Source: Gammaproteobacteria bacterium (GTDB taxonomy: Bacteria > Pseudomonadota > Gammaproteobacteria > Pseudomonadales > Azotimanducaceae). Taken from it: a DNA stretch of 64,000 nt. The notes under the pieces were generated by a model that was not told the origin of the DNA, did not search any database, and saw only the letters and a program-made list of their open reading frames with translations. The DNA lies in NCBI GenBank assembly GCA_004357385.1, contig SMWF01000060.1:1-64000 (forward strand), written 5' to 3'. Positions 632-9,127 of this stretch are shown here, one piece after another. The first letter of the stretch is position 1; each line of letters starts with the position of its first letter. The translations under genes and the position numbers were made by a program.

Positions 632-1080
632 AGTGTCGACCTCCCGTAGGTCCAGGTAATGGTACAGCGCGCGGCCAGGTCGCCCCCCGGCTCTGCGACC
701 TCGAAACAGAATTGGATTCGATCGAAAGTCCGTTTCCCTTCGCGACGCCGATCGGCTTCGGTCACCTGGGCGGTAATCTGGTAGGTGATGTCCTCGTGGA
801 GCATCTTCGGCATCTCCCAGACGTAGCTCTCGATGCCGATGGAGGAATCCGATTCCGCCTGACCCAGGGCGAACATCTCGGCGATGGACGTGTTCGCGCC
901 GAGGATAGGGACATGGAACAACGCGATCGGGTGGACCATGCCGTCGGGCAGCAGCTCGCCGCCGGTGCATTCGGTGAGCAGGAAGTTCTCCCAATGCTCG
1001 ATGGTGTACTCCCCACCAGGAAACTCATACCCGACGAGTGATTCGATCTCCGCCTCAGTAGGCACGCGAGCTGTATTCAT
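628..1080 (-). CDS. MaoC-like N-terminal (FAS1-type dehydratase) subunit
   Basis: 150 residues; ATG at 1078-1080 with GAGGA a few bases upstream. The protein has the extended N-terminal hot-dog layout (VGYEFPGGEYTIE, then a long hydrophobic helix region and GIESYVWEMPKMLHEDI). This is seen in the non-catalytic or structural partner of two-subunit MaoC hydratases. It ends TYGRSTL, with the stop overlapping the GTG of the next gene. Its 5' end faces the rightward luciferase-like operon across about 75 bases, so the gap probably carries divergent promoters. The specific acyl-CoA substrate cannot be read from sequence. Confidence 0.8.
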   Translation of the reverse strand: MNTARVPTEAEIESLVGYEFPGGEYTIEHWENFLLTECTGGELLPDGMVHPIALFHVPILGANTSIAEMFALGQAESDSSIGIESYVWEMPKMLHEDITYQITAQVTEADRRREGKRTFDRIQFCFEVAEPGGDLAARCTITWTYGRSTL

Positions 1081-1154
1081 TGGGTCCTCGGGTTGTATTC
1101 CGTATGGATGAGCACGGTATAGTAAAGCGCATAGCGGGATCTGAGGTAGTGCGG

Positions 1155-2324
1155 GTGAAGTTTGGGATCTTCTTCGAGTTGTCGACGCCGCGGCCATTCG
1201 GTCGCGAGGTCGAGGCATTGGTCTATCACAACGCGTTGGCCCAATGCCGACTTGCAGATGAACTGGGATTCGATCACGTCTGGGCCGTGGAACATCACTT
1301 TCTGGAGGAGTACTCCCACTGCTCGGCGCCGGAGGTGTTTCTGGCCGCGGTGGCCGCACAGACGCGCCGGGTGCGGATCGGTCATGGGGCCGTCGTGTGC
1401 GTCCCGGAAATGAATCATCCGATCCGGGTCGCGGAGCGCGCGGCGGCATTGGACATCATCTCCAACGGGCGGCTCGAGTTCGGAACCGCGCGCTCGTCCA
1501 CGTGGACGGAGTTGGGCGGCTTCGAAGTCAACCCGGATGACACCAAGAAGACCTGGGACGAGTTCGTGCGCGTTTTGCCGAAGATGTGGACCAGCGACGA
1601 GTTCGAGTGGCAGGGCAAGGCGTTCTCGATGCCGGCACGTAACGTGCTGCCGAAACCGTACCAGGATCCGCACCCGCCGATGTGGGTCACCGTGACCACC
1701 CCGGGAACGGAACTCGATGCTGCGGATCGCGGCCTCGGTTCGCTGGGCGTTTCGGCGGCCGGCTACGAGGAGCAGGAACGCCGCACCAAGGAGTATCACC
1801 GGCGCATTCAAGTCTGCGAACCGGTCGGCGGCGTGATCAACGACCAGGTGCACACCATGAACTTCCTGTACTGCCACGAGGACTATCGGCAGGCGCGAGA
1901 TCGGGGTGTGCCCATGATCAATGCCTTCAATGTGGCCAATACGCATCTGTACTGGACCCGTGAAGCCTATCCCACGCGCGCCTATCAGACGCTGGGCAAT
2001 GTGGGTGCCGGGATGAAAGCCAAGAAAACGGCACCCGACGATCCAAGTGTCGCCAAGGGCCTGCCCGAAGGTGTCGGCATCGGTGACCCGGAGCACCTGA
2101 TTGCGATCATCAAGCGCTGGGAGTCGATCGGCGTCACAGGCATCAACTTCCTGCTCAATGCCATGGAGATGGTCCCCCAGGAGCAGGTGCTGGAAAGCAT
2201 GCGTTTGTTTGCGCGGGAGGTGATGCCGAAGTTTCGCTCGGCCGAGGAAGCTGCCGCGCCGGTCTACAGTCCGGCGGCGGTTCCGTCGATTCCAGCGCTG
2301 CCGTCGACTGCGGAGGTGGCTTGA
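1155..2324 (+). CDS. Luciferase-like (LLM class) flavin-dependent oxidoreductase
   Basis: 389 residues from a GTG at 1155, with TGAGGT ending 7 bases upstream; a second GTG at 1149 is possible. The N-terminus MKFGIFFEL and the segments LADELGFDHVWAVEHH, GHGAVV and LDIISNGRLEFGTARS are typical of bacterial luciferase-fold TIM barrels that use reduced FMN or F420. It is the first gene of a tightly packed operon with an ADC-fold protein, a TauD dioxygenase, a CYP153-like P450 and a selenoprotein candidate. Its stop TGA overlaps the next ATG (TGATG). A monooxygenase role on a hydrophobic substrate is inferred from the operon, not shown by the sequence. It differs clearly from the two paralogues at 20.6 and 58.0 kb. 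Confidence 0.88.
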   Translation: MKFGIFFELSTPRPFGREVEALVYHNALAQCRLADELGFDHVWAVEHHFLEEYSHCSAPEVFLAAVAAQTRRVRIGHGAVVCVPEMNHPIRVAERAAALDIISNGRLEFGTARSSTWTELGGFEVNPDDTKKTWDEFVRVLPKMWTSDEFEWQGKAFSMPARNVLPKPYQDPHPPMWVTVTTPGTELDAADRGLGSLGVSAAGYEEQERRTKEYHRRIQVCEPVGGVINDQVHTMNFLYCHEDYRQARDRGVPMINAFNVANTHLYWTREAYPTRAYQTLGNVGAGMKAKKTAPDDPSVAKGLPEGVGIGDPEHLIAIIKRWESIGVTGINFLLNAMEMVPQEQVLESMRLFAREVMPKFRSAEEAAAPVYSPAAVPSIPALPSTAEVA

Positions 2325-3061
2325 TGCTGGTTGGCACCGCGGACCTCGACCAGCTGGTGCAGACAGCGGCGACCATCGACGCATTCCCGGTCGAGCCGCT
2401 GAATCTGGCGGACGTCCTCTGCCTGCAACTGACTGCGGAAATGCATAATCAGGCGCGCGAGGCGGTGCTGCCGCCCAGCCTGCACCCCACTGTGCCCGCG
2501 ATCCTGGGCTTGCAGGTTTGGCAAGTGGGTGAGAGCCCGTGGGGCGCGTTCGCCATGGCCGTTGCACGGGTAGCGTGCCGGTCCGGAGTGCGTGCGCGCG
2601 GCTATACGACCGCGGCTTTCGTTTCAACGGCCGCGGCGACCGAAGGGCTGCGATCGATGCTTGGGTTTCCAGCCGTGCAGGGCGATGTCACCATTCGGCA
2701 CAGCTACGACGGGACGCGAGCAAGCGTTGATTGGCAGGGCGCACGAATACTGGAGGTGGTCGGCCTGGACCCGGAACCGCTCGGCGCGGCGGACGTGCAG
2801 TACACCGGCACGTTGAATCTGGCGCACACGCCCAACGGATTGCGGTTGGTTCAGGTGGAAGCACATCATCAGGTTAACCGGGTCGAGCGCCTGACCGCCC
2901 GGCTCGACACGTTCGACGCATCGGCGTGGGGCAACCCGTTGCTGGATCCCTATCGGGTCGTGTCCTGTTCGGTGGCGTTGGAGGAGGTCACGTTCGCGCC
3001 GGTCCGCTTCGTCTGCAAGCCGGATGAACTCGCCTTCACCGGGACGGAGGCTGTCGCATGA
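2324..3061 (+). CDS. Acetoacetate-decarboxylase-fold protein, apparently lacking the Schiff-base lysine
   Basis: 245 residues; ATG at 2324 overlaps the previous TGA and follows GGAGG at 2312. The blocks LPPSLHPTVPAILGLQVW, SPWGAFAMAVARVACRSGVR and GFPAVQGDVTIRHSYDG resemble the ADC-like family. In true acetoacetate decarboxylases the segment after GFP carries the lysine that forms the Schiff base. Here it reads GFPAVQG with no lysine, so simple acetoacetate decarboxylation is unlikely. ADC-fold homologues can act as other lyases, hydratases or binding proteins. Overlap with both neighbours (ATGA at the 3' end) indicates co-translation with the flavoenzyme and the dioxygenase. Function unknown. 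Confidence 0.7.
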   Translation: MLVGTADLDQLVQTAATIDAFPVEPLNLADVLCLQLTAEMHNQAREAVLPPSLHPTVPAILGLQVWQVGESPWGAFAMAVARVACRSGVRARGYTTAAFVSTAAATEGLRSMLGFPAVQGDVTIRHSYDGTRASVDWQGARILEVVGLDPEPLGAADVQYTGTLNLAHTPNGLRLVQVEAHHQVNRVERLTARLDTFDASAWGNPLLDPYRVVSCSVALEEVTFAPVRFVCKPDELAFTGTEAVA

Positions 3062-3969
3062 CCATGCCCGGGGCCACGTTCCAGTACGAACAAATCGCAG
3101 TGCGGGCCAGTGGAGCTGTCGGGGCTGAGGTCTGTGAGGTTGATCTGAGCAAGCTGACCGATGCAATGGTCGCGGAGTTGCACCGCGCCCGCGGCGACCA
3201 CGGCGTGCTGTTCTTTCGCGATCAGGTGCTCAGCGAGGCCGATCACATCGCTGTGGCGGAGCGATTCGGCACCATCAACGTCAACCGGTTCTTCACCGCC
3301 GTGGATGGCTTCCCCCAGATCGCAGAGGTACGCAAGGAGGCCGAGCAGACGGCGAACATCGGGGGTGGCTGGCATACCGATCATTCCTACGATGAAATTC
3401 CGGCCATGGGCTCGATCCTCTATGCCCGTGAAGTTCCCGAGGTTGGCGGCGATACGCTGTTTGCCAGCATGTACGCGGCCTACGATTCATTGTCGGAGGG
3501 GATGAGATCCATGCTGTGCAGCCTCAATGCGGTGCACTCCTCGCGGCATGTGTTCGGAGCGCGCGCCGAACGCCCGGCTGAGCTCTCGGCGCGTCTCGGC
3601 AATCAGGCGGCCGCAACCCAGGACGCGGTGCATCCGATGGTGATTCGACATCCGGTGTCCGGACGGCCTGCGCTGTACGTCAATCCGGGTTTCACGCTGC
3701 GCATCGAAGGGTGGACGCCGGCGGAATCGGCCCCGGTGTTGGCGTTCCTCTACGCACACGCGTCGCGGCCCGAGCACACGTACCGGTTTCACTGGATGCC
3801 GGGCTCGGTAGCTTTCTGGGATAACCGGGCCACCTGGCACTATGCGGTGAACGACTATCATGGCGAGCGTCGTCTGATGCATCGCATTACGCTGGAGGGG
3901 GATGCCCTCTCGGCCGCCGTACCCGGTGGCGGCGCACCCAGTAGAGCGGTACACGCAGTAGGAGGTTGA
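3058..3969 (+). CDS. TauD/TfdA-family Fe(II)/2-oxoglutarate dioxygenase
   Basis: 303 residues; ATG overlaps the preceding stop (ATGA). The iron-binding HxD is visible in GGGWHTDHSYDE (about residue 102-110) and the distal His in FWDNRATWHYAVND (about residue 262). The 2-oxoglutarate-binding Arg is likely the R of HGERRLMHRITLEG. Length and motif spacing are normal for TauD/TfdA enzymes, which hydroxylate small acids such as taurine, alpha-ketoacids or 2,4-D and can cleave C-S, C-O or C-N bonds. The substrate is unknown. The gene sits between an ADC-fold protein and a CYP153-like P450, so it may act on a product of the same oxidation pathway. Confidence 0.9.
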   Translation: MTMPGATFQYEQIAVRASGAVGAEVCEVDLSKLTDAMVAELHRARGDHGVLFFRDQVLSEADHIAVAERFGTINVNRFFTAVDGFPQIAEVRKEAEQTANIGGGWHTDHSYDEIPAMGSILYAREVPEVGGDTLFASMYAAYDSLSEGMRSMLCSLNAVHSSRHVFGARAERPAELSARLGNQAAATQDAVHPMVIRHPVSGRPALYVNPGFTLRIEGWTPAESAPVLAFLYAHASRPEHTYRFHWMPGSVAFWDNRATWHYAVNDYHGERRLMHRITLEGDALSAAVPGGGAPSRAVHAVGG

Positions 3970-3970
3970 C

Positions 3971-5221
3971 ATGGATTTAGGCAACGCAACACGACTCGCC
4001 GAAGCCCGGGACCGGGCGTACTCGCTGCCGCTGGAGCGATTCGACGTCAGCGATGCGAGCCTATTTTCGAGCGATACGTTGTGGCCATACTTCGAGCGAC
4101 TGCGCGCTGAAGCGCCCGTGCACTACTGCGCCGAGAGCCACTTCGGCCCCTACTGGTCGTTGAGCCGGTTCGAAGACATCAAGCGCGTCGATTCGGATCA
4201 CGTGCGATTCTCTTCAGACCGCAGCATCACGATCAACGATGAGACGCAGGATTTCGAGACGCCGATGTTCATCGCCATGGACCGGCCCAAGCACCCCCAG
4301 CAGCGCAAAGTAGTCAGTCCGGCCGTGGCGCCGCGCAATCTCGTCAGGATGGAAGACACGATTCGTGGCCGGGTGGCGCGAATTCTGGACGATCTCCCAG
4401 TGGGCGAAACCATCAACTGGGTCGAGCGCGTGTCGATCGAACTCACCACCCAGATGTTGACCACATTGTTCGACTTTCCTTTCGAACAACGCCATCGCCT
4501 GACGCGCTGGTCCGACGTGGCGAGCGGCGGTCCGCGCACGGGCGTTGTGGAGTCGCATGAGCAGCGCAAGCGGGAGCTGCTCGAGTGCCTGGAAGTCTTC
4601 ACCGGGCTCTGGAACGAGCGCGTCAACCAGGAACCGGGCCCGGACCTGATCTCGATGCTGGCGCATGGCGAATCGACCCGGAACATGCCACCCATGGAAT
4701 ACCTCGGCAACGTGTTGCTGCTGATCATTGGCGGCAACGACACCACTCGCAACTCAATCACCGGCGGCGTGCTGGCGCTTAATCAGTTTCCGGATCAATA
4801 CCAGAAACTGCGGGACCGACCGTCGTTGATCCCGAACATGGTCTCGGAGATCATCCGCTGGCAGACCCCCGTTGCGCACATGCGCCGAACCGCGCTGGAA
4901 GACGTCGAGATTCAGGGTCAGCAGATCCGTAAAGGCGACAAAGTGGTGATGTGGTACGTCTCCGGAAATCGCGACCCCGATGAGTTCGAGCGTCCGGACG
5001 AGTTGATTATCGACCGTCCCAATGCCCGGCACCATCTGTCGTTCGGCTATGGCGTGCACCGGTGTATGGGCAATCGGCTGGCGGAAATGCAACTCAGAAT
5101 CGTGTGGGAGGAAATCCTCGAACGATTCGACCGGGTCGAAGTGGTTGGGGAGCCCGTGCGCATCAACACCAACCTGCTACGCGCCTATTCGGAACTACCG
5201 GTGCGCCTGCACCGCAGATAG
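3971..5221 (+). CDS. Cytochrome P450, CYP153-like (terminal alkane/fatty-chain hydroxylase family)
   Basis: 416 residues; ATG preceded by AGGAGG. The I-helix motif is GGNDTTRN (about residue 254), ExxR is EIIRW (about 296), and the haem loop is FGYGVHRCMGNRLAEMQLRI with the thiolate at Cys365. The unbroken HRCMGNRLAEMQLRI run, IAMDRPKHPQQRKVVSP, and the C-terminal SELPVRL are characteristic of CYP153 enzymes. These hydroxylate the terminal carbon of n-alkanes, fatty acids and some terpenes. No ferredoxin or ferredoxin reductase is adjacent; a 2Fe-2S ferredoxin lies at 42.2 kb. The gene is followed after 8 bases by a thioredoxin-fold selenoprotein candidate. Substrate assignment is by family only. 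Confidence 0.9.
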   Translation: MDLGNATRLAEARDRAYSLPLERFDVSDASLFSSDTLWPYFERLRAEAPVHYCAESHFGPYWSLSRFEDIKRVDSDHVRFSSDRSITINDETQDFETPMFIAMDRPKHPQQRKVVSPAVAPRNLVRMEDTIRGRVARILDDLPVGETINWVERVSIELTTQMLTTLFDFPFEQRHRLTRWSDVASGGPRTGVVESHEQRKRELLECLEVFTGLWNERVNQEPGPDLISMLAHGESTRNMPPMEYLGNVLLLIIGGNDTTRNSITGGVLALNQFPDQYQKLRDRPSLIPNMVSEIIRWQTPVAHMRRTALEDVEIQGQQIRKGDKVVMWYVSGNRDPDEFERPDELIIDRPNARHHLSFGYGVHRCMGNRLAEMQLRIVWEEILERFDRVEVVGEPVRINTNLLRAYSELPVRLHRR

Positions 5222-5229
5222 GAGGCCAC

Positions 5230-5571
5230 ATGACCAAGCGCGTCGATTGGTACTACTACCGCAATGGCTGAACCAGCTGCAATCGAGCATCCAAGTTTTT
5301 GGAGGCAGGTCACATCGAAGCTACGGAGAGGGTGCCGGCCAGCAGGAAGCTGCAGGCGGCCGATGCCCGCGCGCTGCTGAAGTCGGCCACGACGCTGAGG
5401 GTTGCGAAAGGCAAGAAGATCCGTGAGTTCACGGTGGCGGACAAGGTGTCGAAGGATGCCGTAGACGCCATGCTCGGACCCACGGGCAACCTGAGGGCGC
5501 CCACCGCGCGAGTCGGTAAAACGATACTCGTCGGGTTCAACGACGAGCTTTACCAAGGCGTATTCGGCTAG
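5230..5571 (+). CDS. Candidate selenoprotein: ArsC/Spx-like thioredoxin-fold protein with U-x-x-C motif (in-frame TGA at 5269-5271)
   Basis: An ATG at 5230 with AGGAGG just upstream opens a frame that meets TGA at codon 14 and then stays open to TAG at 5569-5571. Read through, it gives 113 residues beginning MTKRVDWYYYRNG-U-TSCNRA. The TGA falls exactly where the first cysteine of a redox CxxC would be, giving Sec14-x-x-Cys17. The rest resembles ArsC/Spx-type thioredoxin-fold proteins: FLEAGHIEATER after the active site, a cis-Pro-like RAPT near residue 97, and VGFNDELY near the end. A hairpin fitting a bacterial SECIS follows the TGA. It is the last gene of the CYP153 operon, so a peroxide- or thiol-linked repair or regulatory role during oxidation is possible. 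Without recoding, the product would be a 13-residue peptide. Activity on arsenate is not implied. Confidence 0.8.
5287..5306 (+). promoter_or_regulatory. Putative bacterial SECIS hairpin
   Basis: The RNA GCAUCCAA / GUUU / UUGGAGGC folds into an eight-position stem with one A-G mismatch. The four-base apical loop starts with G at 5295, 23 nt after the in-frame TGA. This matches the known bSECIS layout: a stem-loop inside the coding region just downstream of UGA, with G among the first two loop bases and a spacing of roughly 16-37 nt. It would recruit SelB with Sec-tRNA. Confidence 0.7.
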
Positions 5572-8290: not shown

Positions 8291-9127
8291 ATGGCGCCAG
8301 CGCAGAACGAGCAGAACGAGCAGATCGAGCAGAAGGCGATCTTCATTACCGGCGGTGCAGGCGGCATGGGGCTCGCCACCGGACAGTTGTTCGCCGAACA
8401 CGGCTGGTTCGTGGGATTGTTCGACATTGATGAGGCAACCTTGGCGCAGTCGGCGGTTGCGTTCGATCCGGACAACTCCATGTATCGGCGCCTGGATGTA
8501 ACCGACGAATCCGACTTTACAGGGGCGATGGACGCCTTTGCCGCGGCCACCGGTGGCCGGCTCGACGTCATGTTCAACAATGCGGGGATTGCGCCCGGAG
8601 CGTGGTTTGATGAGATGCCGATGACAACGATCCGACAGATCATCGACATCAACGTGTTCGGCGTGATCATTGGCACGCGGCTGGCGCTGCCGTTGCTGAG
8701 GAGTACCGCGGGGTCGATCAATGTCAGCACGTCGTCGTCGGTAGCGACGTACGGGCATGCGTTGCGTGCTGTCTATGCGGCGTCGAAATACGCGGTCAAG
8801 GGGCTGACGGAAGCGTTGAGTCTAGAGTTCGAGCGATTCGGTGTGCGTGCGGCGGACGTGCTGCCCGGTTGCATCGACACGCCGATGCTGCGCAACGCCC
8901 TGGCTGCGGGCGCCGGGCGGCCCTTCGAGGAATCGATGTTCGACGGCATGCAGCAGGAGGGCGCCTATCGGCTGATGCCCGTGTCAGCTATTGCCGACGC
9001 CGTGTGGAACGCCTACCACGATCAGCACACGATTCACTGGTACGTGCCCGAAGAAGTGGGTGAGATCGACCGTATGGACATCGATGCTGCCCGGGCGCTG
9101 ACCAAGGACTTTCTGTTCAATCGTTAG
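8291..9127 (+). CDS. Short-chain dehydrogenase/reductase
   Basis: 278 residues. Cofactor motif TGGAGGMG starts near residue 20, the NNAG motif is FNNAGIAPG (about 97), and the catalytic pair is YAASKYAVKG (about 160). The N-terminus is extended by a glutamine-rich NEQNEQIEQ encoded by tandem 9-base repeats (8302-8328). GGGAGGG precedes the ATG. The FDIDEATL stretch after the first Rossmann beta-alpha-beta unit suggests NAD rather than NADP. The substrate is unknown. Its 3' end overlaps the convergent MFS gene by 11 bases. Confidence 0.88.
   Translation: MAPAQNEQNEQIEQKAIFITGGAGGMGLATGQLFAEHGWFVGLFDIDEATLAQSAVAFDPDNSMYRRLDVTDESDFTGAMDAFAAATGGRLDVMFNNAGIAPGAWFDEMPMTTIRQIIDINVFGVIIGTRLALPLLRSTAGSINVSTSSSVATYGHALRAVYAASKYAVKGLTEALSLEFERFGVRAADVLPGCIDTPMLRNALAAGAGRPFEESMFDGMQQEGAYRLMPVSAIADAVWNAYHDQHTIHWYVPEEVGEIDRMDIDAARALTKDFLFNR

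Follow-up and report, generated by a model that had tools for sequence, protein, structure and literature searches.

The window, by which we mean the whole 64,000-nt stretch of DNA that was analyzed, carries a gene run that ends in a small reading frame (Table 1). The frame starts at ATG 5230, reaches an in-frame TGA after 13 codons and then continues for 99 sense codons to a TAG at 5569-5571, as read directly from the sequence. Its AGGAGG motif overlaps the stop codon of the preceding cytochrome P450 gene (TAG, 5219-5221). When the TGA is translated as U, the N-terminus reads MTKRVDWYYYRNG-U-TSC..., i.e. the TGA codon opens a UxxC motif. A gene call under the standard code would truncate this gene at codon 14, and the locus is a clean example of such a case. 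A rough filter for further recoded genes in the window, based on a single TGA, third-position GC and limited ORF overlap, gave no candidates; the filter is crude, so that further cases may have escaped it, and it also missed the selenoprotein gene itself, which is covered by an antisense ORF. Rfam at gathering scores and ARAGORN gave no matches within the window.

Table 1 Features of the selenoprotein locus and the upstream gene run in the window
Feature	Position	Strand	Remark or basis
Luciferase-like monooxygenase, same gene run	1080..2324	+	domain search
Acetoacetate-decarboxylase-like protein, same gene run	2321..3061	+	domain search
TauD-type dioxygenase, same gene run	3058..3969	+	domain search
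CYP153 cytochrome P450, directly upstream of the selenoprotein gene	3971..5221	+	sequence match
Shine-Dalgarno sequence AGGAGG	5220..5225	+	ends 4 nt 5′ of ATG 5230; sequence
ArsC/Spx-related selenoprotein gene (NF041106)	5230..5571	+	113 aa, predicted Sec at residue 14
In-frame TGA, codon 14, predicted U of U-T-S-C	5269..5271	+	sequence and conservation
TGC, Cys17, final UxxC residue, presumed resolving Cys	5278..5280	+	invariant in 34-row alignment
SECIS-type hairpin	5287..5306	+	upper stem CCAA/UUGG, loop GUUU (5295-5298), outer GC/GC pairs

An NCBIfam profile search placed the read-through protein in NF041106, 'ArsC family (seleno)protein' (ArsC_rel_Se_1), at a score of 110.7 bits (cut-off 85) and with residues 5-108 matching positions 1-107 of the 107-position profile; the Spx and arsC_related models also matched, both below their cut-offs. 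The protein resembles NF041106 over the whole profile, in its UxxC motif and in the place of Sec at the first motif position, and no substantive difference was found. It is thus a member of a catalogued family, and the suggestion that it represents an undescribed kind of protein is unsupported: the excerpted text of a 2026 review already lists an 'Arsenate reductase-like protein, NF041106, UxxC' and describes nearly all such proteins as largely uncharacterized in function (PMC13188914). Excerpts of earlier papers hold an 'Arsenate reductase-like protein, COG1393, UxxC' (2022 review, PMC9312934) and an 'Arsenate reductase 2, cd03032, UxxC' (2008, PMC2398784), which are likewise bacterial UxxC selenoproteins with an ArsC/Spx-type domain. 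As far as these excerpts go, they appear to be the same proteins as NF041106, a likening made by description rather than by sequence. The selenoprotein would lend itself well to initial biochemical work, and it leaves the general picture of bacterial selenoproteins unchanged.

When 100 genomes from the window's taxonomic family were searched, the NF041106 gene was found in 53, spread over 26 of 37 genera, so that roughly half of the family members sampled keep a small redoxin with Sec. These genomes held 54 matches, 53 with one internal TGA and one in which the position is TGT (Cys; motif CPAC), and the protein was conserved on either side of the TGA in 61 of 62 extracted rows (two of them duplicates; 59 distinct sequences entered the hairpin tests described below). 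Because the arrangement recurs in this way, the frame across the TGA is not a chance one; the single frame and U-T-S-C motif of the original prediction hold up, with relatives that span the TGA in frame and carry TGA or Cys at that position. Positions 5230-5571 thus very probably constitute one gene whose codon 14 would be read as selenocysteine. In a 34-row alignment, the invariant columns were Y9, R11, G13, U14 (shown as C), T15, C17, A37, G61, G83, G86, R89, P91 and G102. A sample across the class gave a match at E 0.001 in 84 of 274 genomes, but one above the NF041106 cut-off in only a single genome, the window's own, which among the genomes listed is also the only one from its taxonomic family; among the matches listed, an internal stop occurred only in the window's own gene. 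A profile search of genome contigs returned eight loci, including KSB1, Poribacteria and Desulfobulbus records. Two of the family loci stand out in other respects: L078 (genome G076, contig C152) carries two copies of the gene ~2.2 kb apart, each with its TGA, and L079 (genome G033, contig C22), the sole Cys form, belongs to a genome that still has SelB above the cut-off.

The AlphaFold2 model of the selenoprotein had a mean pLDDT of 93.7. VIA-align ranked the Spx chain 3ihq first (Z 8.9, 2.6 Å over 87 residues), followed by 2m46 (8.7), 3gkx (8.7), Spx 3gfk (8.6) and YffB 1rw1 (8.6); glutaredoxins and NrdH followed with Z from 7.6 down, so the lead of the Spx and ArsC folds is modest. Foldseek placed Spx first as well (E 5.8e-4, TM 0.54). 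Together with the NF041106 match, these nearest folds support the earlier view of a UxxC thioredoxin-fold protein akin to ArsC and Spx. The gene product, predicted to be a small thioredoxin-fold protein, most likely acts as a glutaredoxin-like selenol-thiol oxidoreductase, judging by its motif and modeled fold: Sec14 would attack a disulfide or another oxidized substrate, and Cys17 would then resolve the adduct.

Given these neighbors in fold space, the protein could instead be a selenocysteine version of the Spx regulator, with a UxxC that senses oxidants in a protein that binds RNA polymerase. The fold and the place of the CxxC motif are common to Spx (3ihq, 1z3e, 7f75) and the selenoprotein, Spx heads the fold list and, in the profile search, Spx chains rank behind the top hit. 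Yet Spx has Cys where the selenoprotein has Sec, and the scores fall far below those of the Spx models (29.3 bits for TIGR01617, whose cut-off is 75.05, and 18.5 for PRK01655, whose cut-off is 123). Moreover, the stretch around Spx Gly52, a residue with a role in binding the α-CTD of RNA polymerase, corresponds to a four-residue gap in the selenoprotein's profile alignment with 7f75_G, a comparison at the level of sequence alignment only. We therefore regard a regulatory, Spx-like function as unlikely.

A genuine selenocysteine arsenate reductase (ArsC) is quite unlikely. The selenoprotein shares superfamily and fold with ArsC and YffB (3f0i, 1rw1), and ArsC-named chains were found at VIA-align Z scores of 6.7-8.7. 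However, the Pfam ArsC model (PF03960) gave no row at E 0.1 and TIGR00014 was absent from the six NCBIfam rows at E 1, in searches where the HMMER filters drop weak matches. The Arg that precedes the conserved Pro has a catalytic role in ArsC; it is also present in Spx and in 2m46 in their profile alignments with the selenoprotein, whereas all 34 rows of the alignment have Ala at this position, apart from a Ser in one. Nor was there an arsenic gene among the four upstream genes scanned. Relatives do carry the name 'arsenate reductase' in print, as in the entries excerpted above, but the selenocysteine ArsC described there is of the UxxS type (UXXS in the excerpt of a 2005 paper, PMC1088965), as opposed to UxxC in the selenoprotein, where the +3 residue is Cys in 34 of 34 rows.

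The gene immediately upstream matched the CYP153A7 structure 3rwl with an E-value of 3.9e-173 over 14-414. The original prediction had singled out the pairing of the selenoprotein with a CYP153-type hydroxylase, a TauD dioxygenase and a luciferase-like enzyme; the upstream CYP153 is real, but the pairing is not a conserved unit. When ORFs within 5 kb were clustered across the 62 rows (two duplicates), no conserved partner emerged, and a P450 cluster was present in four rows, the window included. The commonest cluster at this distance comprised 12 loci, in varying places and on varying strands (frames within or antisense to the gene were excluded), and its window member at 8291-9127 looks short-chain-dehydrogenase-like by eye. 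At one relative (L100), a P450 is likewise encoded directly upstream, with 28% identity to that of the window. A conserved operon of CYP153 and the selenoprotein gene was rejected, as gene order is not kept in relatives. In excerpts of the open-licence literature, the CYP153 adjacency was not found; one genome paper mentions CYP153 and selenocysteine separately.

At a wider radius, the picture is that of a weak regional trend. Nine of 52 relatives had CYP153-like genes within 19.5 kb of the selenoprotein gene (L162-L243), where the genome-wide density predicts 2.4 (simulated P 0.0004); by genus, the count was 6 of 25, with 1.36 predicted (P 0.0015). The excess is post hoc in that the radius was set after the coordinates were known. 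A selB-centered control gave one strong CYP153 match in 40 regions, covering 0.63 Mb as compared to 1.32 Mb. P450s were the commonest neighbor family at 19.5 kb, found in nine genera (a count that includes the window and non-CYP153 P450s) against two in the smaller control set; the next clusters were, by eye, acyl-CoA-ligase-like, reductase-like and CoA-transferase-like. This hints at a regional tendency rather than an operon and is best treated as a lead.

That the selenoprotein works specifically as redox partner to the upstream CYP153, or to the lipid-oxidation pathway of this enzyme, seems very unlikely to us. The overlap of its ribosome-binding site with the CYP153 stop codon and the regional excess speak for such a link. 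Against it, CYP153 was directly upstream only in the window among the neighborhood rows compared, with distance and strand varying elsewhere; one of the nine nearby genes is a contig-edge fragment and the radius was, as said, a post hoc choice; the genera with a nearby CYP153 may share an ancestral gene order; and CYP153-like genes (E 1e-60) are common in these genomes anyway, occurring in 89 of 100. The adjacency in the window mostly looks incidental. A broader role of the redoxin in the oxidative breakdown of lipids or hydrocarbons in this bacterial family, e.g. through the repair of enzymes from CYP153-bearing regions, is also improbable. If true, such a role would explain both the regional CYP153 excess and the operon-like position of the gene in the window.

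Returning to the predicted recoding of codon 14, we considered the RNA downstream of the TGA. Bacterial SECIS elements follow a spacing rule of 16-37 nt and have a loop-initial G. The hairpin in the window has its loop G at position 5295, 23 nt after the TGA. Its folding energy does not stand out against synonymous recodings (z = -0.18; 38% of recodings reach it). Since energy was weak for the window alone, a position-specific test was adopted: a stem of at least four contiguous pairs together with a loop G at exactly +23 was present in 51 of the 59 distinct sequences, as compared to 2.8 expected from synonymous recoding of the same proteins, with the caveat that the sequences are related and the counts not independent. 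At six other offsets, the same stem and loop-G requirement was satisfied by zero or one sequence each. Across the 59 sequences, hairpin energy had a mean z of -0.9 to -1.0, and six of them reached a rank of at most 0.05; mean z elsewhere was -0.39 to 0.13 at seven places and -0.63 at an eighth, the latter from four sequences. The proposed SECIS hairpin with its G-initiated loop is thereby supported by position, energy alone not being decisive.

Codon choice and base-pairing could be followed along the same element. Among the 49 codons examined, counting rows with the majority residue, choice was most frozen within the hairpin (Ser TCC in 42 of 43, Lys AAG in 49 of 49 and TTG in 45 of 56), and weaker bias appeared outside the stem at codons -3, +2, +13 and +24. 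Base pairs of the hairpin were standard in 45 to 57 of the 59 rows, with the exception of one inner mismatch position (18/59). In four distant homologues (L006-L009), hairpins form with different stem letters and with loops that start at +20 to +24. These loop starts come from a looser scan that allows mismatches and requires the loop G by construction; it placed a hairpin in 59 of 59 rows, has no null and serves for loop positions only.

The selenocysteine machinery, which the original prediction had proposed to look for, is complete in the window's genome, each component scoring above its cut-off. Contig C91 holds selA (E 7.5e-153), selB (E 1.3e-121) and the tRNA-Sec gene selC (71.2 bits against a gathering score of 47), and two selD matches are present in the genome. 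Among the 100 family genomes, 81 had SelB above the cut-off, namely 47 of the 53 that bear the gene (the Cys-form genome included) as compared to 34 of the 47 that lack it; because selB is this common without the gene, co-occurrence by itself is weak evidence. The six gene-bearing genomes without selB above the cut-off were G015, G017, G073, G078, G090 and G086. The first five are 81-91% complete, and G073 has a 183-bit selB piece. SelB was above the cut-off in four of five further gene-bearing genomes (L003, L005, L006, L008 and L009), and the fifth has a C-terminal SelB piece below it.

That translation truly ends at the TGA, so that only a short peptide is made and the frame behind it is decayed or unrelated, is extremely improbable: the standard code does end the frame after 13 codons, but protein sequence on both sides is conserved in 61 of 62 rows, the family match is full-length and the Sec machinery is present. 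From the conservation and the machinery, the UGA would be decoded by SelB, which together with Sec-tRNA would read it at codon 14, aided by the hairpin 16-35 nt downstream. Taken as a whole, we hold with high confidence that the locus encodes an NF041106 selenoprotein with a SelB- and hairpin-decoded UGA, most likely a glutaredoxin-like redoxin.

Two observations on the machinery genes deserve separate mention. Genome G086, which like the other five exceptions speaks against this reading, carries the TGA gene (L074, contig C1) without SelB above the cut-off in an assembly that is 93% complete and consists of eight contigs. In the window's own genome, one of the selD matches (L049, contig C114) lies inside a 745-residue open frame in which, by eye, NADH-dehydrogenase-type flavoprotein-like sequence with Cys rather than Sec in its CGGCGSK motif occurs together with the selD part and precedes it.
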